Shown one piece after another: positions 5,394-64,000 of a stretch of DNA of 64,000 nucleotides. Source of the stretch: Membranipora membranacea. Lineage: Eukaryota > Bryozoa > Gymnolaemata > Cheilostomatida > Membraniporidae. The translations under genes were made by a program, and so were the position numbers. Under the pieces are notes generated by a model. It was given only the letters and a program-made list of their open reading frames with translations. It did no database searches and had not been told where the DNA came from. The first letter of the stretch is position 1, and every line of letters begins with the position of its first letter. The stretch spans positions 5,392,001 through 5,456,000 of the forward strand of contig OU612075.1 in assembly GCA_914767715.1 (NCBI GenBank), given 5' to 3'.

Positions 5394-6205
5394 CACGCGG
5401 CACCTTGGTCGACTTCCCATCATGGCTATGGCAATCAGACAGGTGCACAATGCCTGGTCTCAAAAGCGCATCATGAGAAAAATAAAGTGAAACATAACAA
5501 TATCACTGTGAAACGGACAGCCAGCAAACCAACCATCACTCAGCCTAACCTATTCTTAGGAAACTGCCAGTCCCTCACATCTAAGAAATCAGACGAACTC
5601 CTGACAACATGTGCCGAAGACAACATCTCGATAATCCTAGCCACAGAAACCTGGTTCATGGAAACTAAGGATATCACACTACCAAACTATAAGCTCTACT
5701 CTACACACCGAGTCAGCAGATCAGCAGATCAGGTGGCGGTACAGCAATATATGTGAAGAACAGCATTCCTACGCAGCAGATGCAGAAGTATACTTTCAAC
5801 GATGACGCAGTATCAGCAACCTGGATCAAGGTGACATCGACCACAGCTGCTCCTAGTATAATCTACGGCTGCCTATACCATCCTCCTAGTGCCAAAGAGG
5901 AGACTACTCTCAACTATCTCTCAAGCACGCTCACTGATATCCTTGTCAAACACCCCAACCACTCCATCGTGCTTGGTGGTGATTTCAACACACTAGATTG
6001 TACAATCCTGATAGATATATTTGGCCTCACTAATATTGTCAACTTCCCAACCAGACAAGATTCGTATTTAGACAAAATTTTTACTAATGATTTATCATAT
6101 CTGAAAGCTAATTGTGCTAAAAGTGCCCCCCTTGGAAAATCCGATCATGCTAGTGTTATCATTAATAGTGCCTTTTTACAGAAATGTGAGTATAGAACTA
6201 TTTAA
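5394..6205 (+). pseudogene. LINE ORF2, APE-type endonuclease part, frameshifted
   Basis: The endonuclease nicks target DNA to prime reverse transcription. Motifs in order: GNCQSL at the N-terminus (about 5557), ATETWF with the metal-binding E (about 5641), YHPPSA, GGDFNTLD (about 5971) and KSDHAS (about 6138). The frame shifts near 5715-5732, where the octamer AGCAGATC is present twice in tandem; with one octamer fewer the reading passes directly into GGGTAIYVKN in the frame used from 5753 on. A TAA at 6203-6205 then interrupts the frame, which continues unchanged into the reverse transcriptase. The open frame extends upstream of 5487 to 5394 without an ATG, so no start is assigned. Family: a CR1/Jockey-group-like non-LTR element (inference). 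Confidence 0.9.
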
Positions 6206-6241
6206 AAACGAACTGTCACCCCTAATGCTAGGAACGCCATA

Positions 6242-8104
6242 ATGCTCGATGTAACCAAAACAGACTGGTCGTTACTATCGAATATATCTGATCTTGATAT
6301 GCTCACCGAAAGCTACCAAACCATCCTGACTGACATATATCACAAACATTGTCCACTCAAGCGCATACATATGAAACTAGATAGCAAACCAGCTTGGGAA
6401 ACCCCCCTCATCATAAAGCTGAGAAGAGCCAAGGAAAAAGCGTTCAACACGGGAAACCCCACATATGTTTACCTAAGGGCTACCCTGGAGAGATTCATAT
6501 CCAAGGCCAAACAGAGATTCTATGATGGCAAAGTAAACCAACTGAAAGCAGGAACTGTAAACTGGTGGCGCAGCATTAAATGTTTAAACCCATCGGCAAG
6601 CAGTAGCAATCAGCCATCTCACTATGTCCTAGATGACAATCTCTACACCCCGCAGCAGTTCGTCGACAAGCTCAACCTACACTATGGTACTATAGCTGGA
6701 GAGCAGACGCCAACACCACCTCATCCATACTCTTCACATAGTAAACATGCTGAGATATCTATAGGACAGGTGAAATGTGCGCTGAGAAGAATCAACACAC
6801 AGAAAGCCACACACAGCCAAGATTATCCATCATGGATAAGTAAAGCGTGTCACGAAGACCTTTGTGTACCTGTAACCAGAATCGTAAATCTGACACTCCA
6901 CTCCTGCAGATTTCCATCACTCTATAAAACAGCCGAGATATCACCAATAGCAAAGACTAAATCCGCATCATCTTGTAAGGACTATCGCCCTATCTCACTA
7001 CTCTGGCACATTGGGAAACTTATAGAGTCCTTTATGAACCGACAACTCCAAGATGAACTTCAAATTAAACTAGACACTAATCAGTTTGCGTACAGAAAAG
7101 GTGTAGGCTGCACAGATGCTCTGGTTTACTTGTTGGATGATGTGACTACTATGCTCGATGACACTGACAATCATGGGGCTCAACTGATCTTGTATGATTT
7201 TAGCAAGGCTTTCGACTTCATGAATCATCAACTTCTCACAAAACTACAAGAGCTGGAATTATCTGATGCACTAATATCTCTCGTCGAGAATTATCTATGT
7301 AACCGATCACACTGTGTCACTCTAAGATGCCACAATGCGAAGTCGACCTACCGAATGTGCAACACTGGAGTCCCTCAGGGCACACTCTGTGGACCCACAC
7401 TCTGGTCAGCATTCGTAAACTCGCTCAAATTCTCACAAGGCGCCACCATCAAATACGCAGATGATACGACTACCTACTATCCGCTGAAGAAATCCACTAC
7501 TGAGACCACTAGCTGCACTCGATCAGAAGTCGACTTTGTACCTCCTGAAGTGGGACAACAACTAATCAGAGAGTGCAGTGATTGGGCTAATCGGAATAAG
7601 ATGCGTCTTAATGTCCAAAAAACCAAGTCGCTCAATGTATCCCTCAGAAAATCTCTAAACATGAACTCTGAACTCGTTATGAACACCAACCAGAGCGTCA
7701 CAAACGTCTCAAGTACAAAATTACTAGGCGTGACACTTGATAGCCACCTTACATTCAGCGAACATGTGTCCGAGGTACGAAAGGCTGCAAACCGTAAAAT
7801 CCACGGATTGTTAGTCCTGAAACAATCTGGGGTTAACACAGAAACACTTGTGATGATGTACAGAGCCCAAATACTGCCAACAATAACCTACTCAGCTCCA
7901 GCTTGGTTTCCTTTCTTAGCAGACTATCTCAAGAACGAGCTGGAAAAGATCCAGAAACTAGCACTGCGAATAATTTTCAATGACCTTGAACATTATATCG
8001 ATAGACTCAACGCTGCTAAGTTAACACCACTTTGCGATTTACTCCATGACGTATGCTCAACCTATGTGCTGAGAATCGTCAATAATCCAGAACATCTGCT
8101 GAGA
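6242..8104 (+). pseudogene. LINE ORF2, reverse transcriptase part, 3' truncated
   Basis: Same frame as the endonuclease, separated only by the TAA at 6203-6205. RT blocks: KDYRPISLL (about 6978), DTNQFAYRKG (about 7074), motif A YDFSKAFDFM (about 7192), motif B GVPQGTLCGP (about 7369), catalytic KYADDT (about 7451), SDWANRNKMRLN and KLLGVTLD. The C-terminal part LALRIIF.DLEHY is shared with the 3' fragment at 40226-40619, which continues to a proper end (NLFFRYF, stop). Here the homology stops near 8104 in the middle of that region; the codons to 8200 read through a tRNA-like sequence. Apart from the octamer duplication, the TAA and this 3' replacement the element looks intact, so it is fairly young. 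Confidence 0.92.
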
Positions 8105-8124
8105 ATAATACTAGACAAACAATG

Positions 8125-8195
8125 CACCCTGTGGGGCTCGAACCCAGGACCTAATCATAATGAATCTGGCGCCTCTAACACTTGGCTTTCACCAG
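8125..8195 (-). other. tRNA-Leu-like sequence (SINE head or tRNA pseudogene)
   Basis: On the minus strand an A-box-like stretch AGCCAAGTGTTAGAGGCGCC (8187-8168) is followed by GATTCA and, at 8145-8131, by the B-box core GGGTTCGAGCCCC. The order and the GGCGCCAGA D-arm resemble tRNA-Leu. Acceptor pairing is poor, so a functional tRNA is unlikely. It abuts the truncated end of the LINE. Confidence 0.5.
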
Positions 8196-8851
8196 TTTGA
8201 TTACTCAGTTAACCTTTCACAACAAGTAATCTGCTTAGAATAATATATCAAGCCTTCTAACAAACAGTATACAAAATCAACCAACCAAAACCAGTTACAT
8301 CCAGCTGAAACAGGCTGTGTTGGGTCAAACTTGAAACATAACATGATAACAGAATAACAAATAATCACAGTATTTACAAAAGTGTATACTACCTTATGAC
8401 TCATATCAATGTATCATAAAACACTGTCACTTCAAAATCATAACAGAACCGATTGTATGAATTTTTGACAGCTCAATAGACCTAATCATCATGAATGAAA
8501 GTGGGACGCTACACACAACCTCAGTGAAACACGTAATTTCCATTGATTTGTGAGAAGTAATGCCCATGTTGCGTATGGTTATCACAGATTGTCTGAACCA
8601 GAAGATTTTAAGTTCACCACCTGATCAACTTCAATCAGAGTTTGAGCTGTAAAAAATGCAATCACCATTGCTGGCACATAACCATACATTGTTACGTCAT
8701 CCGAAGGTTTGTGCTACAGTACCCTGATACTGGGGCAATGCTATCATTCAAATAATGACATTTTGTTTATATTGTGGTTACCTCATAAAATTGAACACCT
8801 TCAAATCCAACGTAACCTTGTTCGCTTACTTTGAATTATTTTCTATTGTAG
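8196..8851. other. No gene recognised
   Basis: AT-rich sequence between the tRNA-like element and the orphan exon. It may hold upstream introns of that exon, but no homologous exon was found. Confidence 0.5.
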
Positions 8852-23640: not shown

Positions 23641-24480
23641 ATTAAATCATCTCAGAAAAAAATACAGCAGAATAAATAGTACAATAAACTAGTGAATCCC
23701 AAACTACCATCACTCAGTAGGGAGCAACGAGTGCTAAGTATCAGGTGAAGGGACATTGCAAACGTTCAGGTAAGAGTCAACCATTCAATCAGTAGAACAT
23801 TATTTGTGACAAGCTGAAGCCTTGTGACGTGAAACTGATTATATCAGCAAAGTAGCTGCAGTGCCCATATTAGATATGTGATGATGTTTCAATGTCATCC
23901 AGAGCATTGAAACTGTTATTTCAGAGGTCAGGTCTACCATCACCAACCTACCGATCTGATGATCTTTCTTTAGACAAATATTGTGTGTGTGTGATTTATG
24001 GAACTTTGACTGCCTTGCACGAAAATGTTTAGATTGCTCTTCCTCAAGTCTGTGCTGACTTTAAGAACTTCATCAAGGATAATGTTAGTGACAAGGTCTG
24101 TTGTTGTGGTCAGTGATGACCTCAAACATGATGCCTGATCTGGCAAAAATTACCTTACTGTGCTGAGCAACCACATCTCCATGTCATATCCAGAAGTCAC
24201 CAGCTCACCAAGCGGAGGAGAATGAGGAAGAGAGATGACTGTAGCGGCAACAGTTGCTGGGCCTACAGGACAGCAGTACTCAATGTAGGTTATCTGATTT
24301 GCAGCCAATTATCGGAACAATTTGTATGGAATGGTTTGCGGTCACACAATCACCAAACCAACATCAAGAACAGTGCTCAGGACAAAATGTCCCACCTTCA
24401 AATACTGGCACAACTAAATGAATACTGGCCGATATTTATATTTATACTTATATATATGTATACACCATCTTAGTTCCCTC
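23641..24480 (+). pseudogene. DFAENY/SDDLKHD-family remnant, copy A
   Basis: Sequence contiguous with the P-element-like block. Near 24100 it reads VVVSDDLKHDA and then SGKNYLTVLSNHISM, matching copies at 41.7-42.1 and 58.5-58.7 kb. The fuller copy at 32822 carries VDFAENY upstream of this point. The family is an uncharacterised, repeat-associated protein seen in invertebrate genomes (from memory); paired acidic motifs suggest a nuclease or transposase fold, unproven. This copy is riddled with stops. Confidence 0.55.
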
Positions 24481-26476: not shown

Positions 26477-27896
26477 AAATCTGGGTAATTTTCACCCAAA
26501 ATGGTAATCCGGGAAACATCCAAATTGTCGTTGACTGCAGCACAGCTGTTTTTGAGCTTGTCAGATCTATATTTCAAACATCAATTCAGGAGCAATATCT
26601 TTATGTAACTAGGAAAATGAATAAAGATAAGGACAAAAACACAACAGCCACCATATTCACCGTTAAAAACAAGAAGAAATCGGATAGACGCCTTTATACT
26701 GCAAACTTTTACCATACCACCTCTAGAATACTGGTGAATGCTATCAAAGATGTGGATGTGTTTATAAGTCACTACTCTAAGCTGGTAGGTGAATTACAGC
26801 CAGAAACAATTGCCAATTTGAACGAGAAAATCCGTTCCTCATGCTCAAATGCAATGGAATCGCTAAAAAGTAAACAAACCAATGCCAACAGCAGCACAAC
26901 TCAACAACAAAGCACACAAGGTGCTCTAGGGGGATCTACAGTTCACTGCCAGAGTCTTCTCAGTGTTCCCTGTCTGAGACAATGGAGACTTCTGCTCCAT
27001 TCGGCGACAGCGCTCCCAGTCATTCCAGGGACAGAGATTGTGGCGAGAGTCCCAGATGTGCGTCATGCAGAACTCTACATGGCGTGCTTTCTATTATGAT
27101 GGAGAAGATGGACAGCATGCAGGAGAAGATGGACAGCATGCATGAGAGCCCTAGTACAAAGGAATGTCCATCAAATTCCAAAAATACCGTACAACAAACA
27201 TATCTTCCAACTCAAACTCTTAACACCACACAACAATGGTCATCAGTTGCAAGCAGCAGTAGACAACTCCACAGAAATATTCCTTCATCAACAACACATC
27301 AAAACACACCAACACCAAGTTCACCGGCAACTACATCCAACACACCAGATCACATGCCATCTATTAGAAAAACAGCTCGTCCAAACAACTTTAACCCCAA
27401 GCACTGCATCGTAATAAGTATCAACAAGTCATCAAAAACCTACCAAAACTATAATCAAGACAACATCAGACGTGAGATTAACCGTGAATTCGGCCCAACC
27501 ATCATAGAAAACATAACGACCTACAATTTCAAGACAGAATCTCCAAAAATTATGCTGCACCTTCGCGATGAAAAGACAGTGACCAAGTTGATAAACACTT
27601 GGAATACATTACTATTTGAAAATTCGCAAGTAAGAAAGACAATCAATCCAGAATCAGCAAAAGTCAACACTGGTATGCTGAGAGGCATTCCTATCGATGC
27701 TGATGATGAACTTGTAAAAAAAGAGATATCACAGAATTTCCCCAACTCTTCAGCTATAAGGATTTACAAAGGGGAAAAGAAAATGCTCATCTTTAAAGTA
27801 AAGTTTGACACTCAGGACCAATACAACAAGGTCCTCAGTCAAGGTATGATTTTAGACTCACTTAAACTTAAATGCCATTTTGAAAAACTTCTATGA
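26477..27896 (+). pseudogene. LINE family D, copy 1, ORF1
   Basis: Homologous along its length to ORF1 at 59948-61509. An open frame from 26477 (NPGNIQIVVDCSTAVFELV) lacks an ATG until 26617; it contains LYTANFYHTTSRILVNAIKD. Near 26950-26985 the frame shifts; the second frame carries a CASCRTLHGVLSIMMEKMDSM coiled-coil start (MDSMQEK tandemly repeated), a Gln/Asn/Thr-rich linker, and a C-terminal RNA-binding-like domain (NYNQDNIRREINREFGPTIIE ... MLRGIPIDADDE). It ends at TGA 27894-27896, overlapping the ORF2 start by four bases (ATGA). Role: nucleic-acid chaperone of the retrotransposon particle. Confidence 0.85.
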
Positions 27897-30620
27897 TGGC
27901 AATGAATTTTCATAGCGCATATCTTAATATCCGTGGATTGGCAAGCAAACTGGAAGAGGTTCGTTTAATTCTTAGTGATCACAAATTTAGTATACTGTGT
28001 TTGGCTGAAACATTTTTGAATGTAAATGATGACAGCTGCCTATATGAGGTACCAGGATACACGATGATAAGAAGGGATAGGCTCTGTAACAATGGTGGGG
28101 GATTACTCTGCTATGTCCATGATTCACTGGTCATTGAACATCTGGAAAATTTAGATCTTTACATGGATGAGAGTATAACAGTCGAGGTCAGACCCAGAAG
28201 CCAAAAGAGTTTTTTGGTCACATACTTATATAGACCTCCCCAATCAAAAGCATCATGGAACACAGACTTTTCAGAGTTTTTCGAGCGTTGTTATGGTTTG
28301 AACGATGAAATTATAATATTTGGTGATTTCAATATTGATTTGCTGAATCCAACTTCGAAAAACAGGTGGTTAGATAATGTTACCTCTCCACTACTGTTGA
28401 ATCAACTTATATCTGAACCCACTCGCATAACTAATTCATCAAGGACACTAATTGACCACATCTATTCAAGGAAAAGTGACAATATTCCTAAATCTGGTGT
28501 CATCAAATATTCACTGAGTGATCATTTCATGATAGTAGCTTCAAGAGAGATTGATAGAAATGTTAAAATATCTAAACAAAGATGTAAGGTAACATTTTTC
28601 GATTATTCATTTGCATCACCTGAAAACATTTTTAACACATTCTCAAGGGAAAATTTTGGTTACGTACTGTATGAAAGATCAATAGACTCAATGTTTGAGA
28701 AGTTCTATAGCCATTTGAATCATCGTATATCAAAACTCGTGTTTGAGAAGACTCGTTTTGTAAGAACGCATAATCTTCCAAAATGGTTGGATGATGAGGT
28801 AAAAATGAACATCAAAATCAGAGATCAACTCAAACAAAACGGTGATTGGGAAGGATATACAAAACAGCGAAATTATGTCACTAATATGATCAGACAAAAG
28901 AAGAAAAGAGCTATTTCTAATACTATTAAAGAGTCTAAAGGTAATACAAAACTTGTTTGGGATGTATTAAAGAATAAAAAGAAGGAGACTTTCCCTGCGA
29001 CAAATTTGAGTGCAGATCAATTTAACAGCCATTTCACATCCATTGCAAAATCAATCACAAAGAACCTTGTTGTAACAGATGAGATGACATTTCCCGTATC
29101 CAAACATAATTTGACAGACATACCACAATTCACCTCTTTCACTTGTACAAGAATATTGCTCCACATTCCTGATAGTAAAAGTACAGGACCTGACAGAATT
29201 ACAGTGAAGATGTTGAAGCTTGTTTGGCCTTATATTGTGGATATTGTCACCGATATGTTTAACAGGGTTTTAAGCAAAGAACAGTTCCCTTCAACATGGA
29301 AACTAGCTCGAGTTTCACCAATACATAAATCTGGGGATATAAATAACCCATCAAACTATAGGCCAATTTCAGTCTTGCCTGTTCTTTCAAAAATATTTGA
29401 GAAACACATAAATCACCATCTGCAAGAATATCTCACTAAGAACAAAATCATCCATGAGCTTCAATGTGGATTTAGAAAAGGCCATTCTTGTTCAGACAGT
29501 TTATTTAAAATTATTTCAGACTCTTTGGTGGAGAAAATTAATGGAAATGTTATGACATTACTTTTTCTGGATTTTAAAAAGGCATTTGACTGTGTATCCC
29601 ATGTTGAAGGCTTGCGGCATCGAAGGAAATATGTTAAAACTTCTTGACACCTTTCTGACAGACAGAAGGCAGTTTGTTAAACTCAATAATATTGAATCTT
29701 GTAGATTGCCTATCACAATAGGGGTTCCTCAAGGTTCAATCCTAGCACCAACTTTGTTTCTCATCTTCATAAATGATTTATTAACTTCATCAAAATCAGA
29801 CTCAACATCATATGCATATGCTGATGATACAGTGTTCATGTCATCTAATAAAAACCTTCAGCAACTAAAGGCAAAGGCATCTGAAGATTTAAGTGGTATT
29901 TTGGATTGGTGTAATCGTAACCGGATGGTTATAAATGTTCAGAAATCTCATTACATGCTACTTAATATCTCAGATCCGCTTTATGACCTGGATCTGCACA
30001 TAGGGCATGAAAAACTAAACAGACAGAGAACTACAAGTCTTCTGGGTTTTGTATTGAATGGCTCGCTTTCATGGCAGGATCATCTAGAGTATGTATATAA
30101 AAAGGTACAACGGAATGTTTACCTACTTCAAAATTTGAGATACTTCTTGGATATAGCAAGTGCCCGCACATTTTACTTCCAGTTTATCTATTGTCACCTT
30201 ATATATGGTATCCATATCATTGGCAACTTGACCTGCAATAATGCCCTCAATAGATTATTTTTGTTGCAAAAACGGGCTTTACGCATTATCGCCAATGTGC
30301 ATTACATCCCGTATTATCTCATTTCAACCGAATCCATTACACAATCATTACAACTCCTACCTCTTCCTAAGCTTGTTTGTTATTTCACTTCACTTTTTGC
30401 GCATAAGATAAACAATTTTTTAACACCTCCATTTATATATAGAGGATTTAAAAACACTACCAAGTTCAATTTTCGTGATAAACATTTACTTTTATATCAT
30501 ACAGACAATCTAAGATACAAAGTTTCTGCTACATACAATTCTTTACTGTTACATTTGAGATCTAAAGAGAAGGTCAGTTCATTCAAAACTTTACTTTTCA
30601 ACAATTTATTATCGACTTGA
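27893..30620 (+). pseudogene. LINE family D, copy 1, ORF2 (endonuclease + reverse transcriptase)
   Basis: Starts ATGATGGCAATG overlapping the ORF1 stop. Endonuclease: YLNIRGLASKL, LAETFL (catalytic E), YRPPQS, GDFNIDLL, SLSDHF. RT: STGPDRITVKML, NNPSNYRPISVLPVLSK, LQCGFRKGHSC, motif A FLDFKKAFDC (about 29569), motif B GVPQGSILAP (about 29721), catalytic YADDTVF (about 29818), DWCNRNRMVIN, LLGFVLN, and a C-terminal RALRIIANV...NTTKFNFRDK segment, stop at 30620. One visible lesion: right after AFDCVSH about a dozen bases are missing compared with copy 2 (which has VDHKILLKKL), shifting the frame from that of 27893 to that of 29586. Otherwise complete. CR1/L2/Daphne-like group (inference from ORF1 and motif style). 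Confidence 0.92.
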
Positions 30621-32415: not shown

Positions 32416-32821
32416 AAGAAACGACAGAATAACTAGTGAATTCCTAAACTGATATCACTCAGTAGGGAACTATGAGTGCCAAGTAGAACGTGCAACGGGC
32501 ACTCAAATATTCAGGGAGGAGTCAACACATTCAATCAGTTAAACATCCTATGACAAGCTGATGCCCCTTAATGTGTAGCTGAAGTGCCCATGTGAGATAT
32601 GTGATAATGTTCCAATGTTATCCAGAGCAGAAAAGCTGTCGCTTTGGAGGTCAGGTCTACCATCAGCTACCTACCAATCTGCAATCTTTCTCTAGACAAA
32701 TATTGTGTGATATAAGTTTAACTGTCTTGCACGAAAATGTTTAAAATGCTCTGCCTCAAGTATATGCTGACTTAGAGTACTGGATCAAGGATAATGTCAG
32801 TGACAAGGTCAAGGATGTTAA

Positions 32822-33554: not shown

Positions 33555-34110
33555 TTGATGTCGCCCTCAGCCTTTAAGATAATGCATTTGATTTACTATA
33601 TTACAGCAGATGTTTATCATGCGAGATTCTCAAATTCGTCGAATGGCAGGTATGCCAGAGATTCAAAATTACATCAAGAGCTGCAGCATCAAGGACTTGG
33701 TGTTGCGTTTAATCTCCAGGTCCGGGCCAAAATGGCGTACCTGCTGTGCAACCTGTGAGAAAGCTGCGATATCGTGGTATTCTGTGAACAAAATTCTCAT
33801 ACTCCAGTCAGAATGATACAAGACACATATTCACAAGCATGTGATCGTCATACCCCTATGGCCAATTGCAACCGCATTTTTCATTACCAAGATGAGCATG
33901 TATAACGCCTACTCTACTAGGAAAACAGGGATGTGTTTTGTTAATGGTCTTTTTATGTTGCAGAGAATGTTCAAGCTTCTTTTTGGTGCCAGTGGTAGAA
34001 AATACAGAGCCCTATCCAATATTTCATTGGCAATGAAGAAATCTAGAGTGACAGGATATGTGAAAGGAAAGTTAACATCACACTGGTTTACTTTGATTAC
34101 TGCTTAGGGA
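33555..34110 (+). pseudogene. SGNH-hydrolase-like domain plus LFGASGRK tail, copy B
   Basis: 33610 reads MFIMRDSQIRRM, resembling the GDSxIRR first block of SGNH/GDSL hydrolases with the Gly changed to Arg; then IKSCSIKDL, and in a neighbouring frame AKMAYLLCNL. In better copies this is followed by ENYDIMVFCIGSND (third block, catalytic-type Asn; see 55380). 33850-34100: VIPLWPIATAFF, STRKTGMCFVNGLFML, FKLLFGASGRKYRALSNISLAMKKSRVTGYVKGK. Esterase activity is only an inference from two motifs; SGNH-like modules are known as accessories in some transposable elements. Confidence 0.5.
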
Positions 34111-34139
34111 TAACTGAACTTTGTTATTGTTTCTTCCAG

Positions 34140-35500
34140 CTGTGATCTACGGGTAACCTACGTAAATCAGCGGGATCCGACTGAGGAGGAAACAGAATGG
34201 TATGAGAGGCACATTATTATGAGAGACGAAGCTTTACTGTTAATAACTATACTACTGAGCACTATGAACAGATTGGACTTCTCTACCCTGCAGAGGCCAA
34301 GTACCTCATTGTTGGCATTGAGAAAGGAAAGGCAGGAACGCCACATCTACAAGGCTACGTTGAATTTAAATCCAAGAAAAGATTCAGTCAAGTTCGTAAT
34401 CTGTTCCAGTTCGCCAATCCACATCTGGAGAGAGCCAGGGGAAACCCTGAACAAAACAGAGAGTATTGTTCAAAAGAAGGGAACTTCAAAGAATATGGAC
34501 AGTGCACAAGACAAGGAGAAAGAACAGACTTGCATGCAGTTGCAGCCAGCCTTGAGGAAGGAAAAACAGTCCAAGAAGTTGCTAGTGAACATCCAACTAG
34601 CTTCATCAGGTATCACAGAGGAATCCGTGAATACCATTCCATACTCAAGGAATCAGCTAAGAGGGAGAGGAAGACGACACTCCTTGTGATCCATGGACAA
34701 ACAGGATATGGAAAAAGCAGGTTTGCAGCCAGTTTGAGCAAAAGATACTTTCCAGAAAGCACATACTACAAACCTAGAGGACCCTGGTGGGATGGGTATG
34801 GAGGAGAGGACCTAGTGATCATGGATGACTTTTATGGTTGGGTCAAGTACGATGAATTGCTAAAGATAGCTGACAGATACCCATACAGAGTTCCTGTGAA
34901 GGGTGGATACAGACAGTTCAATACTAAGTGCCTAGTCATTACAAGCAATGCACTTCCAGCTCAGCTGCAGCAGCTGGACGTTAACGCCAACTGAAAAGTC
35001 GTGGTGACCTTTGACCTCCAACAGATTCAACCTTTTTTTAAGCTGAAGTCCAGCAAGGAAACCTTTTATAAATCTAGATTGGTGCTGTATAATCTTTGTT
35101 TTTTGTTAAGAACACACAACAGGGCTACTGCATATGTTGGAGTCAAGTTGAAGGCGGAGGAGGTAGCAACGAAATTGCTACCCGCTTGAAATCTGGCAGA
35201 CAGTCGTCACGTAGTTTTCTACAGTGATGGCTGATCAGGTCAAAATAAAAACAGAGCTGTTGTGGCTTCTTTAGTTCATCTTGCCCACAATAGCCAACCT
35301 GGCCAATTAGTAGAGCTGAAGTCTTTGAGACTGGGCACAGTCACATGGATGTCGACTCTGTGCATGCCTCCATTGAGCGTGCCTCGGAGGGTGCAGAGGT
35401 CGGCAAACCAGGTCCCTGGGTCCTGGTCTTACAGTCTGTAAAGAGCTCTGGGGCCCAGCTCATCGTTGACGAGCTGAGCTTCAGACTTTCCAGGTAGCCT
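34140..35500 (+). pseudogene. Putative transposase with FDLQQ and SDGxSGQNKN motifs, interrupted by Rep
   Basis: Acceptor GTTTCTTCCAG ends at 34139. The exon reads CDLRVTYVNQRDPTEEETEWYERHIIMRDEA to about 34233, is interrupted by the Rep segment, and resumes at 34960 with QLQQLDV, VVVTFDLQQIQPFF, TFYKSRLVLYNLCF, CWSQVEGGGGSNEIATRL (frameshift), VVFYSDG*SGQNKNRAVV, LKSLRLGHSHMDVDSVHASIE. This is a large uncharacterised metazoan family, repeat-associated, known to me by the SDNCGGQNRN-type motif; the conserved Asp residues suggest a DDE-type nuclease (inference). Upstream exons resemble 57377-57695. Stops at 34992-34994 and in SDG*SG, plus shifts, mean it is dead. Confidence 0.7.
34234..34959 (+). 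pseudogene. Endogenous CRESS-DNA-virus-type Rep, N- and C-terminally trimmed
   Basis: Rolling-circle replication initiator: HUH endonuclease plus SF3 helicase. The frame is open from 34206 to the TGA at 34992. Motif I FTVNNYT (34233), motif II HLQGY (34344; HxQ-type HUH as in circovirus-like Reps), motif III YCSKEG with the nicking Tyr (34464), Walker A GQTGYGKS (34695), Walker B VIMDDF (34815), motif C ITSN (34938). Family Reps usually have residues before motif I and a tail after motif C; both are absent here, the ends merging into the host exon. No ATG precedes motif I in frame; the nearest upstream ATG (34219) is in the host exon's frame. The right junction is in frame with the host exon, the left is not. 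No capsid gene nearby. Nearest group circovirus/cyclovirus-like or unclassified CRESS (inference). Confidence 0.9.
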
Positions 35501-36130
35501 GTACCTCGACCTCCCAACATCCTCCAGAAGTCAGATCAAGAGCAGCGAGAGGGGAGCTTAAATGAAATGATGCGAAGTGACTGCAGCGGAAGCATCACAT
35601 GGTGTGAAATTGTACGAAGCTATTTTACTTAATATTACCATATTAACTGACTACTATTGCTTCACACTTGAGCCATATAAATTGTCTTTGCCCAGCTTAG
35701 ACTGTTACTTTTTTTCATGCACCATATTTTATAATTAACCATCATTTTAATTCAGTTTCATGGTTTAACAGAACTGAATAAACATCCAGTGATTCTTCCC
35801 TGTTATATCCACTTGATTTCTTGTACAATCTACACTGATGCCGTTATATCCACAGTGTGTATTTATCATCATCATCAGGGTAATGAAAAGGTGGTACACC
35901 AAAGTTAGGGTGCATTAAGTACATGAACTAACTAAACAAGGTGATTATTACCATTCAGAATATGAAACAGCAGAATAAAAAGTACATTCAACTAGTGAAT
36001 TCCAGGGTGAGCTGATCTGAATACCAGCAGTTATATTTTAATGTAATGACCAAGAACACTCAGAAAGCTGATCACCTTCCGATGTTCAAAAATTGAGAGT
36101 TTTGAGATCGAACTCTGTACCTTGTATGAC
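35501..36130 (+). repeat. Harbinger C-terminal flank and P-element-like remnants
   Basis: 35505-35875 matches 22580-22930 (GCGGAAGCATCACATGGTGT, CTTGAGCCATATAA, CATCCAGTGATTCTTCCCTG), that is, the end and flank of the Harbinger C-terminal exon. 35876-36010 repeats the AGGGTAATGAAAAGGTGGTACACC stretch of the P-element-like block. No open frame. Confidence 0.65.
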
Positions 36131-41089: not shown

Positions 41090-42190
41090 GGGCCTAAAGG
41101 AGCTATAGAGCTTCAAACAGCCAATCGGCTATTTCTTCAGCAGTGGGCTATATTATCAGCGGAAAGCCAAGTTCAGCTAACTAACGAAGCTATACATGAA
41201 GTTAACAAAACCGGCCACACATGCAAAGCATTAATTTCATATCAAGGACCCAACAACACTACGAACACTTGATCAGGATACACCAAGACGAGGTGCATGA
41301 AATACATGAACAACTTAAACAAGGGGATTAAATAATCACATGAAATGATACGGCAGAATAAAAAGTACAATAAACTAGTGAATTCCAAACACATTTCACC
41401 AGTAAAACATCCTTTGACAAGCTGAAGCTCAATTTAGTGTAACTGATGAAGTCAGCGAAGTAGCTGCAGTGCCCGTGTGAGATATGAGATAATGTTTCAA
41501 TGTTATCCAGAGCAGAAAAGCTGTCGCTTTGGAGGTCAGGTCTACCATCACCGACCTAGCGATCTGACGAACTTTCTCTAGCCAAATACATATATATAAC
41601 TTTGACAGTCTTGATCGAAAATGTTTAAAATGCTCTTCCTCACAAGTCTATGCTGACTTTGCGGACTGGATCAATGATAATGTGAGTGACAAGGTCGGGC
41701 GTGTGAAACGATCACATGTCAAAGAAGTGAAAAAGCTGAATAAGGTTGGGATGCTTAGCTATCGATGGGAGGGAGTCTCTGAGCTAACATCTCAGCTAGA
41801 GTCATACCCCAAGCATATAGCATGCTTATCATGCTGTCACTCAACTTTAAGGGCAAAGAAAATGCAATAAAAACTTGCAGAGCAGCGAGGCAGCAGTGAT
41901 TGTTGACATCGCAGAAAATTATGTCGCCCTTGCTGTAACTATTCATCCAATGGCAATCATCTTGAAAATTGAAACATCTGTTAGACAGGTTGTTGTTGAT
42001 GTGGTGACCTTAAACATGATGCCTGCTCTGTCAAAAATTACGTTGCTGTGCTGAGCACCCATATCACCATGCTATCTTCAGAAGTCAACAGCTCACCAAG
42101 AGGAGGACAATGAGGAAGAGAGAAGACTAGCAGCATCAGTTGCTGCGCCTATAGGACAGCGCAACACAATAAAAGTTATCTGATTTGCAT
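41090..42190 (+). pseudogene. P-element-like plus DFAENY-family block, copy C2
   Basis: 41100-41280: FKQPIGYFFSSG, VNKTGHTCKAL.SYQGPNNTT, the P-element core with DQG changed to YQG. Directly contiguous: 41690-41860 KEVKKLNKVGMLSYRWEGVSELTSQLES, 41875-41940 NLQSSEAAVIVDIAENYVALAVTIH, and 41985-42080 VVDVV...KHDACSVKNYVAVLSTHITML, the last one in a shifted frame. The order is the same as at 32.2-33.2 and 58.1-58.7 kb. Confidence 0.65.
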
Positions 42191-44335: not shown

Positions 44336-45310
44336 CGCTCTAGGAATCTAGAGATTATGATCCTGTAATGTTCCACAGCACTTGAAGAATGATGCAGTGC
44401 CTCGTGTTTGAGAATAGGAAAACTTAAGATTCAGGATCTGCCAAAAAGTGTCCATGATCCTGATCATCATATTTGTAGTGCTTTAGCTGATCAGCTTATC
44501 TGTGTTTTAAAAGTGTTCAAGCTCCTCTTTGGTGCCAGTGGTAGAAAAAGCTGACCCCAATACAATGTAATAGGCGATGAATAAATCTAGAGTGTTCTTG
44601 GTCATTAATTACATTGAAACTGTCGCATTGAAGGTCAGGTCTACCATCAGCAACCTACCAATCTGACAATCTTTCTCTAAACAAACATTGTGTGTATATA
44701 AGTTTAACTGTCTTGCACGAAAATGTTTTAAAACACCCAAGTCTGTGCTGACTTAGAGGACTGGATCAAGGATAATGGCAGTGACAAGGTCAAGTATATG
44801 AATCGATCACATGCCGTAGAGAATTTGCGGTGACGTTATCGTGACTAGCAAGTGGACTTATTGTAAACTTGAGGTCAATGGAGCAAAGAAAATGTACTAC
44901 TTTCCTATTTTAACATGTTAGGCATAGGTCAAAAAACAATGTACAATATAAAATCATTTCAGTGTCATTGCTTGCACATTGTTGAAATTACAATAATAGT
45001 TACAACCAACTGTTTGTGATTGGAATTTTTTATATAATTGATTTGAATGCTAGAGTGGAGTACCTGTGCTGCAACCTGAGAGAAAACTATGATAGCATGG
45101 TCTTCTGTATGGGATCATTTATATTGATTCAAGCCATGAACTATAATAATTTCTTAAGGGACTGTTACTTTAATGAGAACGATACAGATATAATATTTGA
45201 TAAACTGTCTATATTTATTCTGAACCACAATGGTTGGCAATTCCATTTTAGATTACTCTCTTCTTGTTTTCTCTTGGAATTCAATAAAATTTGTCTATCA
45301 TGTTGATATT
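44336..45310 (+). pseudogene. Scrambled repeat blocks (LFGASG, DFAENY-flank, SGNH-like)
   Basis: 44510-44560 LFGASGRKS; 44620-44830 matches the flank of the DFAENY block; 45050-45190 reads VEYLCCNLRENYDSMVFCMGSFILI, the SGNH-like third block with GSND altered to GSFI. Order differs from 32-34 kb, so this is a rearranged copy. Confidence 0.5.
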
Positions 45311-55700: not shown

Positions 55701-57376
55701 AAGATAATACCATTAGTTTATCATTATGGTGAGGAGAGTTTATTGGTTCACCTGGATTACAGCTTAATGTTACTGTAAGTGATTTGCCTCTCAATATAAT
55801 GTGAAATGATTTAGTTGATTCATGTCGTTATACAATAAGTTTTGGAAGGTGCTGTTCACTCAGCAGCGATGCACAAACTCAAGATGACTAACCAGGAAAA
55901 CGAGATAGTGGTACGTAGGACGACATTTTGCGATTCTCAGCAGAGCTAGTTCGCACATTCATGTATACAGCTCTGTATGATAGTGAGTCATTTAAAGAAT
56001 TACATTTTTCTTCACGCACTTAAAACTACACTGAGTATTGGAATAACGCCGCTATTTCATCAATATTATATGTACGTGCACACACGCTGCTGTGTTATGA
56101 TCTGCTAAATTTGCTGCTAATATATGCTGCCGTAAGCTTAATGATGTAATTGTGTTGTAGCTGTTATACATACAACTCAAACTCGAGACAGCTCCAGCTT
56201 GTCTGTCTATATTCGACAGACATACTCTGGTCCTAGCACCTATGTTATGGAACGTGTTATTAATTAATTTGCAATGTACTAAGAAATTTGTAATTTTTTG
56301 TTTGTATTATATTCGTAATAATAAGATGGCATTATTGTTTAATCGCATTGTATTGAACTTGTTGCCCACACATACACACAATTTTCATTCATTTGCTCAT
56401 CTTCTATTTGTTGTTATCCAGTGTTTACGATCTCCAATGGTCTCAAAATAAAAGCAAGATCCGTTTGAACCAAGCTGTCTGTCATAACATCTTGGTTTAC
56501 TAGAATGAAGGGGACCTGGTCGAAATCAGTGAGATACCAGAACCAGCCCGGGAAACTCTAGGAGGTGAGTTCACCAAGAACTTCTCTGGTAATGCATTAT
56601 TGGTTGGCCTTATTCTCGACTGATCTTCTTGGTAGGGGATTTTGGGTTTAATAGCTGTAGTACTACTTACTTTAATTGAAAACTGTGAAACATTTTTCCT
56701 GTAGACACTGATGGAGACCATGGTTCCATGCTTAACTCACAGAATATAGAAGGGAGGGCCAGATGGAAGAGTGCGAGGCACCAGACAGCAGCTGCCTCAT
56801 ATGCAAGCGGTGTGGTCACACTGCAGCGAGGAGGAATTGAGTTTACCAATAACACCTGCTCTCTCAGGAGAAAAGAATGACAGGAATAACATCGGGACTG
56901 AGTAGGGCAGGTGGAACTGGTTTGCCAGCCACATCAAGGAGGTAAGATCTTGTTATTGATGTAGATTCGCTCTTATGCTGTGCTGCATTGCTTGCTTTCA
57001 ACTTTTGCCTTTAAAATGACAAATCATGTTTATCATGCCCAGCTAGGTATCGGTTGTAATTATCACCTTTCACATTCAGTTTCAGGATGAAGTTAAAAGA
57101 TATAGGAAGACGCCTGATGTGCCAGAAGAACAGAGGTGCGAAGTGCGAGATGCTAACTTCCTCTGGATGGCAGCATGGATGTGCGTGTGTGCACGGAGAT
57201 GTGGTGCGGCACCCTTGCACTGAATTACAAGACAGTGAGTCAATTTTAATATTAACTCTCTTCAAACTGTTATATGTGCCAATTAGTTTTCGGTAGAAGG
57301 GTAATTGGTTCATGACTTCTTGCCTGTTCATGTTCACTATCACTGCATTCAGTTTGATTTTCTTTTATTTAAACAG
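55701..57376. other. Mostly unrecognised; possible N-terminal exons of the SDGxSGQNKN protein
   Basis: 56705-56880 (NSQNIEGRARWKSARHQTAA..., ending before AAAGAATGA) and 57082-57235 (KLKDIGRRLMCQKNRGAKC...) look coding and are bounded by AG/GT pairs. They directly precede the exon at 57377, so they may be upstream exons of that protein; no motif confirms it. Confidence 0.35.
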
Positions 57377-57695
57377 GGACTAAATAACAAAAGAAGGGGC
57401 GTAAACGGACTGAGCAAGAGAAGAGTTTACAGGGGAGTGCCAAGCAATAAGTTGACTGATACAGACATTGAAGACAAGGCTCGGTTTGTTATAGAGGCGA
57501 GCCAGGTGATGAGCCACTACAGTCACATTTCGGCAGAGGGCAATATCCTGCTGGATTTTACCTGGGAGACCTCTACAGACAGTTTTTGCAGAGCCTGACT
57601 CCAAACCAGAAACAACCCAGCCACACATGGTTTAACACTTTCAGTGGCACGCATTACAACATGGGCACTCACAGGCCAAAGAGCGTTTAGTAAGT
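57377..57695 (+). pseudogene. SDGxSGQNKN-family putative transposase, N-terminal exon
   Basis: After a TTTAAACAG acceptor: GLNNKRRGVNGLSKRRVYRGVPS, FVIEASQVMSHYSHIS, then, after a frame change near 57545, GDLYRQFLQSLTPNQKQPSHTWFNTFSG and YNMGTHRPKS. SHYS, the LYxxFL segment and the closing YNxGxHRPKS are the order seen in this family just before the Cys/Asp exon. A stop at 57688 falls where the donor should be. I considered a viral capsid for this piece and rejected it. Confidence 0.6.
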
Positions 57696-57806
57696 TGAAC
57701 ACCCTCTATTGCTTAGAAACCCTCCGTGACTATTTTGCATTACACATTTTGTGTGTTCATGGTACTTTCTTTCCAGATAACTGAACTATGTTATTGTTTC
57801 TTCCAG

Positions 57807-58105
57807 CTGTGACCTATGGGTAACTAAATCAGCAGGATCCGACTGAGTAGGAAACAGAATGGTATGAGAGGCACATTATTATGAAAGACGAAGCTTACCT
57901 CAGCTGCAGACAGCTGGACATTAAGGACAAATCAAAAGTTGTGGTGAGCTTTGACCTCCAACAGATACTACCTTTTTTTAAGCTGTAGTCCAGCAAACAA
58001 ACCTTTTATGAATCTAGATTGGCGCTATATAATCTTTGTTTTTTTGTTAAGAACACACAGCAGGGCTACAGCATGTGTTGGAGCCAAGTAGTAACCAAAT
58101 CCATC
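57807..58105 (+). pseudogene. SDGxSGQNKN-family putative transposase, exon without Rep
   Basis: After GTTTCTTCCAG: CDLWVT, then (frame shifts) EWYERHIIMKDEAYLSCRQLDIKDKSKVVVSFDLQQILPFFKL, TFYESRLALYNLCFF, GYSMCWSQVV. It aligns with 34140-34233 on one side and 34960-35150 on the other, with only AAGCTTACCTCAGC between: the Rep-free arrangement. The coding frame passes straight through the point where Rep sits in the other copy, so this is the original state of the exon or a precise loss. The family's SDG part is not preserved downstream. Confidence 0.75.
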
Positions 58106-58109
58106 TGGC

Positions 58110-58960
58110 AGACAGTCAATTGATCAGGGTACACCAAGATGAGGTGCATGAAATACATGAACGACTTAAACAAGGAGATTAAATAATCACAGAAAATGAT
58201 ACGGCAGGATAAAAAGTACAATAAACTAGTGAATTCCACACTTCACACTTCCAAACACATTTCACATGATGAAGTCAGCAAAGTAGCTGCAGTGCCCGTG
58301 GGAGATATATGATAATGTTTCAATGCTATCCAGAACAGAAAAGCTGTCGCTTTGGAGGTCAGGTCTACCATCACCAACCTAGCTATCAGTCGAACTTTCT
58401 CTAGCCAAACATTGTGCGTGTGATATATACTATATTACTTTGACTATCTTGATCGAAAATGTTTAAAATGCTCTTCCTCTCAAGTCTGTGCTGACTTTGA
58501 GAACTTCATCAAGGATAATGTGAGTGACAAGGTTTGTTGTTGTGGTCAGTGATGACCTCAAACATGATGCCTGCTCTGATAAAAATTACCTTACTGTGCT
58601 GAGCAACCACATCTCCATGTCAAATCCAGAAGTGACCAGCTCATCAAATGAAGGAGAATGAGGAAGAGAGACGACTGCAGCGGCAACAGTTGCTGCGTCT
58701 AAAGGACAGCGCTACACAATATAAGTTATCTGATTAGCATCCAATTATTATCACTTGATGCACAGACTATCCCAGAAAGTATGCGTGTAGGCCCCTCTTG
58801 GAGTGTTTCTAGTCTTGTGTGGCAGATCTTTCAATGCTTATGAGACATCAGATACACCCTGATTTTAGGAGCCACAGGTCGTTTGATGACAGGGGAAGTG
58901 GGCTCAAAAACATTCACAGGCTTCTATCATTCAAGAAATGAAAAATGAGACGCTCTTTGA
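58110..58960 (+). pseudogene. P-element-like plus DFAENY-family block, copy D
   Basis: 58118-58230 repeats TTGATCAGGGTACACCAAGATGAGGTGCATGAAATACATGAAC from the end of the P-element-like piece; 58255-58745 continues into the DFAENY-family flank with VVVSDDLKHDACSD.NYLTVLSNHISM (58535-58620). 58820-58960 matches 42395-42590. The VDFAENY part itself is deleted. Confidence 0.6.
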
Positions 58961-59947: not shown

Positions 59948-61509
59948 ATGGAAGACAGTGCTTTAAGTTCTAAAAAGCGGAAGCGAGATGACCAAGATGA
60001 CGATCAGCAAGAAAACAAAAAAGAAATGCCGTATTATTTAAACAAACTCAGAGCACCTCAAAAAAAGCTTGATTCAACAACTCAAGACAACAGCATCGAA
60101 ATCAAAGGTACTCTTGACAACATTCAAATCGTACTGGTGTGCAATTCTGCAACATACGAGGTTGTAAAAGCTAACTTCCAGTCCTCGTTAAAAGATCAAG
60201 GACTTTACACCTCTTTACAGACCAACCGGGATCAAACAAAAACAACTGTAGTCGCTGTAGTGGTCACAGTTAAAACAAAGAAGAAAGGAAAAAAATCTTT
60301 ATACACCGCGAATTTTTATAATACAACATCTACCATACTTGTCAATGGTATTAAGGACAAAGATATTTTCCTTGACCACTACACTAAACTTATCAACGAC
60401 ATTCCTGAACATACTATAAATGCATTGAATGCCACCATTCAACAGAAATGTAAAGAATTCATTACATCCGAGCAAGGCATGAATGCGGCAGACGTTCAAT
60501 TACCAAGTCTGGAAAACGGCTACACGTCCAATCAAAGCTCCAGCACATCAGTTGCCATAGAAAGCACCAGCTCTCACAATCATCAAAGAACATCAGGCAA
60601 CACATGTGAATCATGCAGCAATATCCAAAGCCTCATCAGCGTCATGATGAGCAAAATCTCGGAGCTAGAAAACAAAGTTAAACAACAAAGCACTTTAATA
60701 CAGAAACTTGTTGACCAACAACCAATAACCGATCAAATACAACATCAATCCGACCAACTCGAAACCAGCATCAACAAACATCTAACAAGTAAATTGGAAT
60801 GCAATTCAAATTCCTCACCACATGAAAAAGTTTCTCCCAACAATCAAACAGCATCAGCACAACACTGGGCTAACTATAATCATCAGCAACTTAATCTGCC
60901 ATCAACTTCCTTAACGAACAACAACAATCGAACCAGCATGAGAACACAACCCCAAAAGAACAAAAAATAGACAACAGTTTCCGACCTATAGACAATCTTG
61001 TCATAGATATTAAGAAGGACTCCATGACCTACAGCAACTTTAACCAAGATACCATCAGACGCATCCTCAACAAAACCTTTGGGCCAATCATAATAGAAAA
61101 GATTACCAGATATAACTTCAATACAAATAAACCCAAAATTATGATACAGTTCAACCACCAAGAAACGAGAAACAACATCCTACGCAAATGGAACACTGAT
61201 CTATTTGGTGGATCAAGTATACGCCAAATAATCGACTCGAGGTCCCTGACAGAAAATATGGGTATGTTGAAAGGTGTCCCACTAGATGCTGAGGACAGCA
61301 CTGTAATAAATTATATAAAAGTGCTCTACCCTCATGCTACATCAGAAAGAATTTTTAAGGAGGGCAAACCAATGAGAATGTTCAAAATTAAGTTCCATTC
61401 TCATGATGATTTTCTTTTTTCTATTAAAAATGGCATTTGTCTCCTATCACAAAGAGTTAAATGTCAATTTGAGCAAATGAGAAAATTAATTCTGAATATG
61501 CATTTTTGA
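59948..61509 (+). pseudogene. LINE family D, copy 2, ORF1
   Basis: ATG at 59948. N-terminus MEDSALSSKKRKRDDQDDDQQENK (basic, nuclear-signal-like), then LDNIQIVLVCNSATYEVVKA, SLYTANFYNTTSTILVNGIKD, a coiled coil (SKISELENKVKQQSTLIQKLV) after CESCSNIQSL, Gln/Asn/Ser-rich linker to a stop at 60968-60970. A new frame from 61024 carries the C-terminal domain: MTYSNFNQDTIRRILNKTFGPIIIEKI, NMGMLKGVPLDAED, MRMFKIKFHSHDDF. So one interruption between linker and C-terminal domain. This copy has the complete N-terminus that copy 1 lacks. Confidence 0.88.
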
Positions 61510-64000
61510 ATATCGGTGGAATCACCAGCAAAATATAGGAGATAAAATCAATTTTGCATCAACATAAATTCGCAATTCTAGGATTAGCAGAAACATTTTT
61601 TGAATGAGCATGATGGTGTTGGTATTTATGCGGTGCCAGGTTATCAGGTGATTAGGAGAGATCGGGGATATGGTTACGGTGGTGGTCTCATTGTCTACAT
61701 ACATGAATCCGTGCAATTCGAACATCTTGCAGAATTTGACAATAGCATGCCTGAGTCTATAACTATCAAAGTAAAGCCAAGTACAAATAAAAGTTGTTTT
61801 GTCTCATTTATATACAGGCCTCCCAACTCCAAGTCTGCATGGTATGATCTTGCTTACGAATACTTTGAAAAAGCTTTTTCACTGTATAATGAAATGATTA
61901 TACTAGGAGATTTTAACATCAACATCCTTGAACAAAGAAGCAACAGAAAGTGGTTGAATATTGTTAAATCTTTTTCCTTCCGTCAATTGATCTCAAAGCC
62001 AACAAGAGTTACAGAAACATCCAGCACCCTGATCGATCACGTATACACAAATCTGCCCTCAGACATGTCAGAGAGTGGAATTATAAAATATGGAATGAGT
62101 GAGCATTACTTAGTTTTCATTAAAATTTCATTTTCCACATTAAAGGTAAAAGCAAAAAGAACATCATTTGCATTCAATGACTATTCCAAATTTACAAACC
62201 AGAATATACATGACCTTTTTCAGGTCGTCACTTTAATGATGTATTGTGTGAGAATACTGTAGACCGTATGTATGCAAGATTTAATGACACCTATAGTTCA
62301 TTAATCAAAACACTTGTCATCACCAAGAAAAGATTTGTAAAAACTGCTCAACTAACTGCCCAAATGGATGGATTTATTACTATCATAGACAAAAATTTGT
62401 CACGAAATACGTTGTTAATACTGACAAGAAAGAAAAACATGGAAAAATCAGATCTCTGTTGTATAAAAAGTTTTTTTGAATAGTATGTTATTAAGTGTAT
62501 GTATGAGATGTCTTAAAAAGCTGTCTCTACCCCATGTACCCCGATATTTAACAGTGCGGTAGCGACCTGAGGGGCATTTAGTTAGAAAGTCATTGATAAG
62601 TGCTCTTCATCGTGTATGTACCGTAGTCCAAGTGTCTTGATCTGGTTGGCCACCAGAGCATCTATATCGGGGTGCTCAATCCCTAACTTGGCGGCATCTT
62701 TAAATATTTAAATGGTTAGATGATGAGGTAAAATCACACATGCATTTGTGTGATAGATTGAAGAGAGAGGGCAAATGGGAAGAATACAAAATTCAATGCA
62801 ATCATGTTACAAATTTGATTAAGAAGAAAAAATCGGTTATTTCAGATATGATTAAAAATAACAAAAATAACACCAAACCTGTTTGGGAAGCTTTAGGAAT
62901 CAATCAAACTAAAATTTCACCGATGGTCAATATCTGTGTTTTATTCCCTGATGAATTGAACAGACACTTTACATCGATTGCAAAATCCATAACCAAGACA
63001 TCCCTGATTCCCATGAATATAACATGATGAGACCAGTGACAACCCAAACGTTTTCTCAATTGACTCGCTTTACTCCAGAAAATTGTTTCAAATATCTAAA
63101 AAACATTTCTGACAATAAAGCAACTGGTCATGATGGTATATCTGTTAAGGTTTTGAAGAAAACGTGGCCTTACATATGCGACATTGTAACTGACATGTTC
63201 AATAGAGCATTAATAGAGGGTGTATTTCCTTCACAGTGGGAAACCGCAAGAGTAATTCCTATTCATAAGGGTGGAGATAGCAAAGATCCATCTAATTATC
63301 GCCCTATATCAATACTTCCTGTGCTATCTAAGATTTTTGAGAAATAGGTGAATTCCCAAATTCAAAAATATCTCACCACAAACAAATTTCTTCACAAATT
63401 ACAATGCGGATTTAGAGAAGGTTATTCCTGTGTTGATTCCCTACACAAACTCATTTCTGACTGTTTGTCAGCAAGATCAGATGGTCACTTTGTTGCTATG
63501 ATGTTTTTGGATTTCAAAAAAGCTTTTGACTGCGTCGACCATAAAATTCTTCTGAAAAAATTGACAATGTACGGTATAACGGGCAAACTGCACTCTCATA
63601 AAATCTTTCCTAACAGATAGGACACAATTTGTAGCTATACAACAAGGTGCAAAAAGTTCAAAAATTCTTCCAATAGACATTGGTGTCCCCCAAGGCTCAA
63701 TCCTTGCACCAAGTTTATTCCTCATATACGTCAATGATCTTTTATCCTACACATTACATTCCAAGGCATTTGCCTACGCTGATGATACAGTTTTCGTATC
63801 AAAATCTGACAACTTTGATACACTTAATGATTTATGTGATACTGATCTACACTTGATAGAAAGTTGGTGAAGGAATAATAGGATGTTGATAAACATAAAA
63901 AATCTCACTATATGCTTGTACAACCCTCTCATAGAGCCACATCTCAAGATTTAGATCTAAAAATTAACCATAAAAGGCTAAACCGAAATGCCAATACCAA
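61480..64000 (+). pseudogene. LINE family D, copy 2, ORF2, running off the window
   Basis: NSEYAFLNIGGITSKI then a stop; LAETFF (61585) and, from 61600, YAVPGYQVIRRDRGYGYGGGLIVYIHE, YRPPNSKSAWYD, GDFNINILEQR, LIDHVYTNLPSD, YGMSEHYLVF: endonuclease. From 62740: RT with KATGHDGISVKVLKK, PSNYRPISILPVLSK, a TAG at 63345-63347, LQCGFREGYSC, FLDFKKAFDCVDHKILL (63508), frameshift near 63595, GVPQGSILAP (63681), AYADDTVF (63774). About 350 bp of foreign sequence interrupts the linker near 62360-62710. Multiple lesions; older than copy 1 in ORF2. Confidence 0.9.

Follow-up and report, generated by a model that had tools for sequence, protein, structure and literature searches.

Results

A putative transposase exon occurs with and without a Rep insert

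The window, that is the whole stretch of 64,000 nucleotides of Membranipora membranacea DNA analysed here, contains a circovirus-type Rep fragment between the two halves of a putative transposase exon, and a Rep-free copy of the same exon 23.6 kb away (Table 1). In BLASTN comparisons within the window, the left half of the exon (34109-34234) matched 57776-57896 with 91.3% identity (E 1e-45) and the right half (34960-35148) matched 57899-58089 with 89.0% identity (E 3e-65), both matches being colinear and on the same strand. This bears out the earlier note on this DNA, which had described an exon split at 34.2 kb with both flanks matching a continuous exon near 57.8 kb. Its details required small corrections: a gap of a few bases does separate the halves of the 57.9-kb copy, but it consists of AC (57897-57898) and not of TTAC, since TT is part of the matching sequence; the insert with Rep measures 725 bp and not 726; and few bases were indeed replaced, namely two (AC) and not about four.

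In the transposase frame the empty copy reads GAC GAA GCT TAC CTC AGC. The filled copy breaks off after the first T of TAC, a single tyrosine codon, and resumes at CTC, so that AC is exchanged for the insert; the left joint can be read equally well as a cut behind TAC plus one additional T, as the filled copy reads GCTTTAC. A tblastn search with six transposase relatives (E up to 0.01) located the exon at only these two places in the window. The flanks differ from the empty copy at 25 of 309 aligned sites, corresponding to a Jukes-Cantor value of 0.086. The upstream segment listed in Table 1 likely belongs, in our reading, to the same gene as the Rep-free exon copy.

Table 1. Features of the interrupted exon and of its Rep-free copy; positions refer to the window.
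Feature	Position	Strand	Remarks
5' part of putative DUF7869-type transposase exon (CDLRVTYVNQRDPTEEETEWYERHIIMRDEA)	34135..34234	+	Open frame; 91% identity to 57776-57896; matches P0121 residues 15-47; ends after first base of the Tyr codon
Insert of 725 bp with a Rep fragment of circovirus type that extends from HUH motif I to helicase motif C, free of stops and with no frameshift detected	34235..34959	+	
Stop-to-stop frame holding Rep	34206..34994	+	Both ends are exon DNA out of the transposase frame; sole Met codon at 34821
3' part of putative transposase exon	34960..35485	+	Three frameshifts and two stops relative to P0121 (frameshift-aware alignment); 89% identity to 57899-58089 over 34960-35148
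Rep-free exon copy	57776..58090	+	Empty site 57896-57899; itself decayed; P0121 match ends at residue 111
Likely remnant of an upstream exon (Rep-free copy)	57360..57690	+	Translation; aligns loosely with P0127 (N-terminal part)

The insert encodes an open but incomplete Rep of Circoviridae type

The stop-free frame of 262 residues that holds Rep matched two Pfam families above their curated cut-offs, Viral_Rep (PF02407, residues 9-91, E 1.7e-21) and RNA_helicase (PF00910, residues 161-248, E 1.9e-13), so that HUH endonuclease and SF3 helicase domains are joined in one protein. The translation contains FTVNN, HLQG, YCSK, GQTGYGKS, DDFYGW and ITSN, which we take to be motifs I (FTxNN), II (HLQ) and III (YCxK), Walker A, Walker B and motif C, respectively. 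The Rep with HUH and SF3 motifs that had been recognized earlier is thereby confirmed. The best PDB chain was 7lar, listed as ATP-dependent helicase Rep and presumably from a porcine circovirus, with query residues 5-253 aligned to 14-261 of the 314 residues of the chain (E 6e-60).

Rep is free of stops over 726 bp (242 codons), and the 717 bp that align to P0001 show no frameshift. Among the 40 columns in which at least 90% of the relatives with a residue there agree, 38 are kept; the other two, both arginine columns, lie past the end of the insert. The protein is not complete: of the 314 residues of P0001, the first 9 and the last 67 are missing, and no in-frame ATG precedes position 34821. 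Rep is out of frame with the transposase, and an in-frame fusion of the two was therefore ruled out. A tblastn search with 31 Rep queries at E up to 10 detected no second Rep in the window (best other match E 0.065).

A protein search with Rep returned 292 proteins at E up to 0.001. Among the 120 of these that were listed, P0001 was the best match (51% identity), and the named ones comprised circoviruses, cycloviruses, a twig-ant protein and fish proteins. The earlier note had proposed a Rep tree, and it was built from 114 rows, i.e. the window Rep and the 113 of the 120 listed matches that have at least 225 residues. The window Rep occupies a branch of its own (0.89) within an open fork, which comprises 88 rows and also includes circoviruses and cycloviruses; the support of this fork (97/78) is short of the star given by the tool, and no starred set of up to half of the tree rows includes the window Rep. 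Judged by its sequence, the window Rep is of Circoviridae type with no assignable genus. Neither Rep nor an alignment of 16 Rep rows (the latter at flank 0, a setting that may have cost matches) found a relative in searches of viral contigs. The window Rep resembles CVe-Pseudomyrmex, presented by Dennis et al. (2018; PMC6069186): both are Rep fragments of Circoviridae type that lie open in the genome of an animal. P0060, the protein from Pseudomyrmex (49% identity over 77% of the Rep query), is placed among the cyclovirus rows of the tree, whereas the window Rep falls outside them.

The interrupted exon is related to DUF7869 proteins that lack Rep

The best relative of the query assembled from the window copies was P0121, with 77% identity over 67% of the query. 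P0121 matches DUF7869 (PF25273), a Pfam family without assigned function, at 34.4 bits (cut-off 26), and the DUF7869 proteins found were P0121-P0125 and P0127-P0129. The short exon pieces of the window gave by themselves no DUF7869 match in Pfam, and the family was reached via P0121 and the other relatives. The predicted model of P0121, of moderate confidence, resembles retroviral integrase cores, which suggests a link between DUF7869 and an integrase-like fold. The exon is thus probably a decayed transposase of DDE type, and what had been a guess in the earlier note, the label transposase, is now backed by the DUF7869 match of the relatives and by this model. A literature search found no paper naming the family, and searches of genome contigs and of viral contigs with P0121 gave no relative.

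Among nine transposase relatives, seven (P0121-P0127, with 77% to 32% identity to the query) span the insertion point, while P0128 and P0129 begin downstream of it. Rep is present in none of the seven; since copies broken by Rep would be rare among predicted proteins, this sample favours Rep-free copies and bears on the ancestral state, not on the number of copies with Rep. As in the window copies, the exon sequence with its conserved core is found in P0121 (ENA) and P0127 (Parnassius apollo), where it is continuous across the insertion point; both proteins are Rep-free and open, whereas both window copies are decayed. Moreover, the empty copy reads DEAYLSCRQLD where P0121 reads DEAYLSRQLD, with DEAYLS in one frame in both. 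The Rep-free state of all seven site-spanning relatives, together with the P0121 frame kept by the empty copy and the position of the insert within a single tyrosine codon, indicates that Rep is derived, i.e. an intruder that, on the sequence comparison, was inserted into the exon. The filled and empty pair thus shows the direction of the event, Rep in and not Rep out. The earlier note had left two possibilities, and these results support the first, a capture of Rep into a transposon exon with a few bp replaced and no target duplication.

Discussion

The reading that we favour, and regard as very likely, is that a circovirus-like rep fragment was end-joined into a decaying DUF7869 transposon copy and is now an endogenous viral element. 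Circovirus-like DNA in linear form, with most of rep on it, would have entered the animal genome, presumably in the germline. A double-strand break would have occurred in one DUF7869 (DDE-type) transposon copy, probably already decaying, and end joining at this break, with loss of 2 bp and no target duplication, would have left an endogenous viral element interrupting a dead transposase exon.

The state of the flanks bears on the age of the insertion. In a frameshift-aware alignment of 626 bp of exon to P0121, three frameshifts (35100, 35192, 35322) and two stops (34992, 35232) were counted. This count leaves out a frameshift call at 34134, on the border of the exon, and five indels that keep the frame. 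It also leaves out a single base that, compared with the 57.9-kb copy, is absent next to the right joint; its absence is absorbed by the alignment because of the 2 bp lost at the insert. At equal rates, the chance that all five disabling changes fall in the flanks is 0.021, or 0.046 with four counted, an argument for youth that is based on five events only. The flanking exon copy has also lost 9 of the 94 columns that are invariant in five relatives, a looser criterion than the one applied to the Rep columns, and two stops and two frameshift calls, one of the latter at the exon border, occur in the 57.9-kb copy itself. Rep probably entered after much of the decay of the exon, or was protected. 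The lack of an ATG before 34821, the missing protein ends and the disagreement with the transposase frame favour a young fossil, and we consider that Rep is probably a fairly young fossil and not a working gene.

The base composition of the insert may speak against such youth. Its CpG observed/expected ratio is 0.20, whereas window pieces of equal size average 0.52 and are as low in 0.9% of cases. At the codon junctions of Rep, 3 CpG were found where 15.6 are expected (ratio 0.19), and TpG and CpA are over-represented; only 2 of the 18 arginines are encoded by CGN. The corresponding ratios in seven other open frames of the window were 0.81, 0.72, 0.68, 0.64, 0.48, 0.36 and 0.17, the last one (frame 61024-61506) being as low as that of Rep but resting on 5.8 expected. 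Because decay alone would have damaged conserved arginines, we read the CpG depletion as the trace of evolution as a working gene, in a CpG-avoiding virus or, less likely, in the host. Small eukaryotic DNA viruses avoid CpG, which for this virus group is an assumption. The depletion could also mean a long residence under selection, against the youth of the insertion.

Such a residence would imply that selection since the insertion has kept the captured Rep as a domesticated host gene inside a dead transposon, and this we consider quite unlikely. It would account for a frame that is open over 242 codons while the transposon flanks decayed, for the retention of all 38 conserved columns that lie inside the insert, and for the removal of CpG, strongest at codon junctions, where a change is often silent. 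The depletion is, however, also expected of a CpG-avoiding virus, and the missing start codon, the missing protein ends, with two conserved arginine columns among them, and the mismatch with the transposase frame all speak against a gene in use. If Rep had nevertheless been selected, it may be expressed via a putative 5' exon, as an antiviral or as a nuclease/helicase domain.

With regard to the mechanism by which the favoured viral fragment was inserted, the longest direct repeat at the joints is 4 bp, a length reached by 75.5% of 2000 random pairs, which agrees with the earlier observation of no obvious target duplication. Neither a target duplication beyond chance level nor poly-A is seen at the joints, and the origin motifs TAATATTAC and TAGTATTAC are both absent there. 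Because these marks are missing from the joints, end joining of a linear viral fragment fits best, and we infer it as the simplest account, whether or not microhomology took part. It is very unlikely that LINE machinery copied in a viral transcript or that the Rep nuclease itself carried out a site-directed integration. LINE-type reverse transcriptase frames do occur in the same window and HUH Reps nick DNA, but these routes are opposed by the absence of a target duplication above chance, of poly-A and of both origin motifs from the joints. The TAATATTAC nearest to the joints, at 35630, was discounted as origin evidence; it is 671 bp away from the insert, and the motif occurs four times in the window, on both strands.

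The second possibility of the earlier note, that Rep is original to the transposon and was lost precisely at 57.9 kb, appears extremely improbable. Both states are present in one window, but none of the seven site-spanning relatives has Rep, and after a deletion the P0121 codon frame of the empty copy would have been regained only by chance. Likewise, the presence of Rep in 0 of 7 spanning relatives and in 1 of 2 window copies speaks against Rep as the own gene of a transposon resembling a single-stranded DNA virus. An assembly chimera of host DNA and free virus is hardly credible: the joints are those of the assembled sequence, but a chimera would need two independent joints 2 bp apart in one exon, and the fragment lacks sequence at both of its ends and is bordered on either side by colinear host DNA.

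The joining of virus DNA to a host genome is a known kind of event, of which this locus is a well-resolved example. According to a figure legend in Liu et al. (2011; PMC3198968), a CRESS-type Rep sequence interrupts a coding region, which is compared there with homologous regions. The window locus is similar to that case in having a coding region broken by a CRESS-type Rep, and differs from what the legend describes in that the target is a DUF7869 element with an empty copy 23.6 kb away. Circovirus-type sequences are reported from many invertebrate assemblies, many of them with coding potential kept, by Dennis et al. (2018; PMC6069186), where not all of them are confirmed as endogenous; the ant element of that study was examined by PCR in several individuals. 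The pair of filled and empty exon copies, within 24 kb of each other, fixes both joints of a viral integration to a base or two. Moreover, the locus would record the arrival of a circovirus-like virus in this host lineage.

The window itself looks like a layered transposon graveyard. No Rfam family was matched at gathering scores. One repeat family recurs as blocks at 23836-24098, 32575-32809, 41388-41696, 44617-44790 and 58283-58533, the first three about 8.7-8.8 kb apart; they occur in mixed order with other shared blocks and are mostly 70-90% identical. A tandem repeat occupies positions 1-659 (2.6 copies of a 250-bp unit, 94% matches). Frames for LINE-type endonuclease and reverse transcriptase are located at 5693-8200, 27893-30620, 61600-62262 and 63348-63620, and one of them is still open over 652 codons. 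These LINE frames and the repeats, together with an upstream stretch that resembles an intron, suggest animal DNA. In the reverse-transcriptase search 120 of 6419 matches were listed, and among those the few named by organism came from fish, with 26-30% identity.
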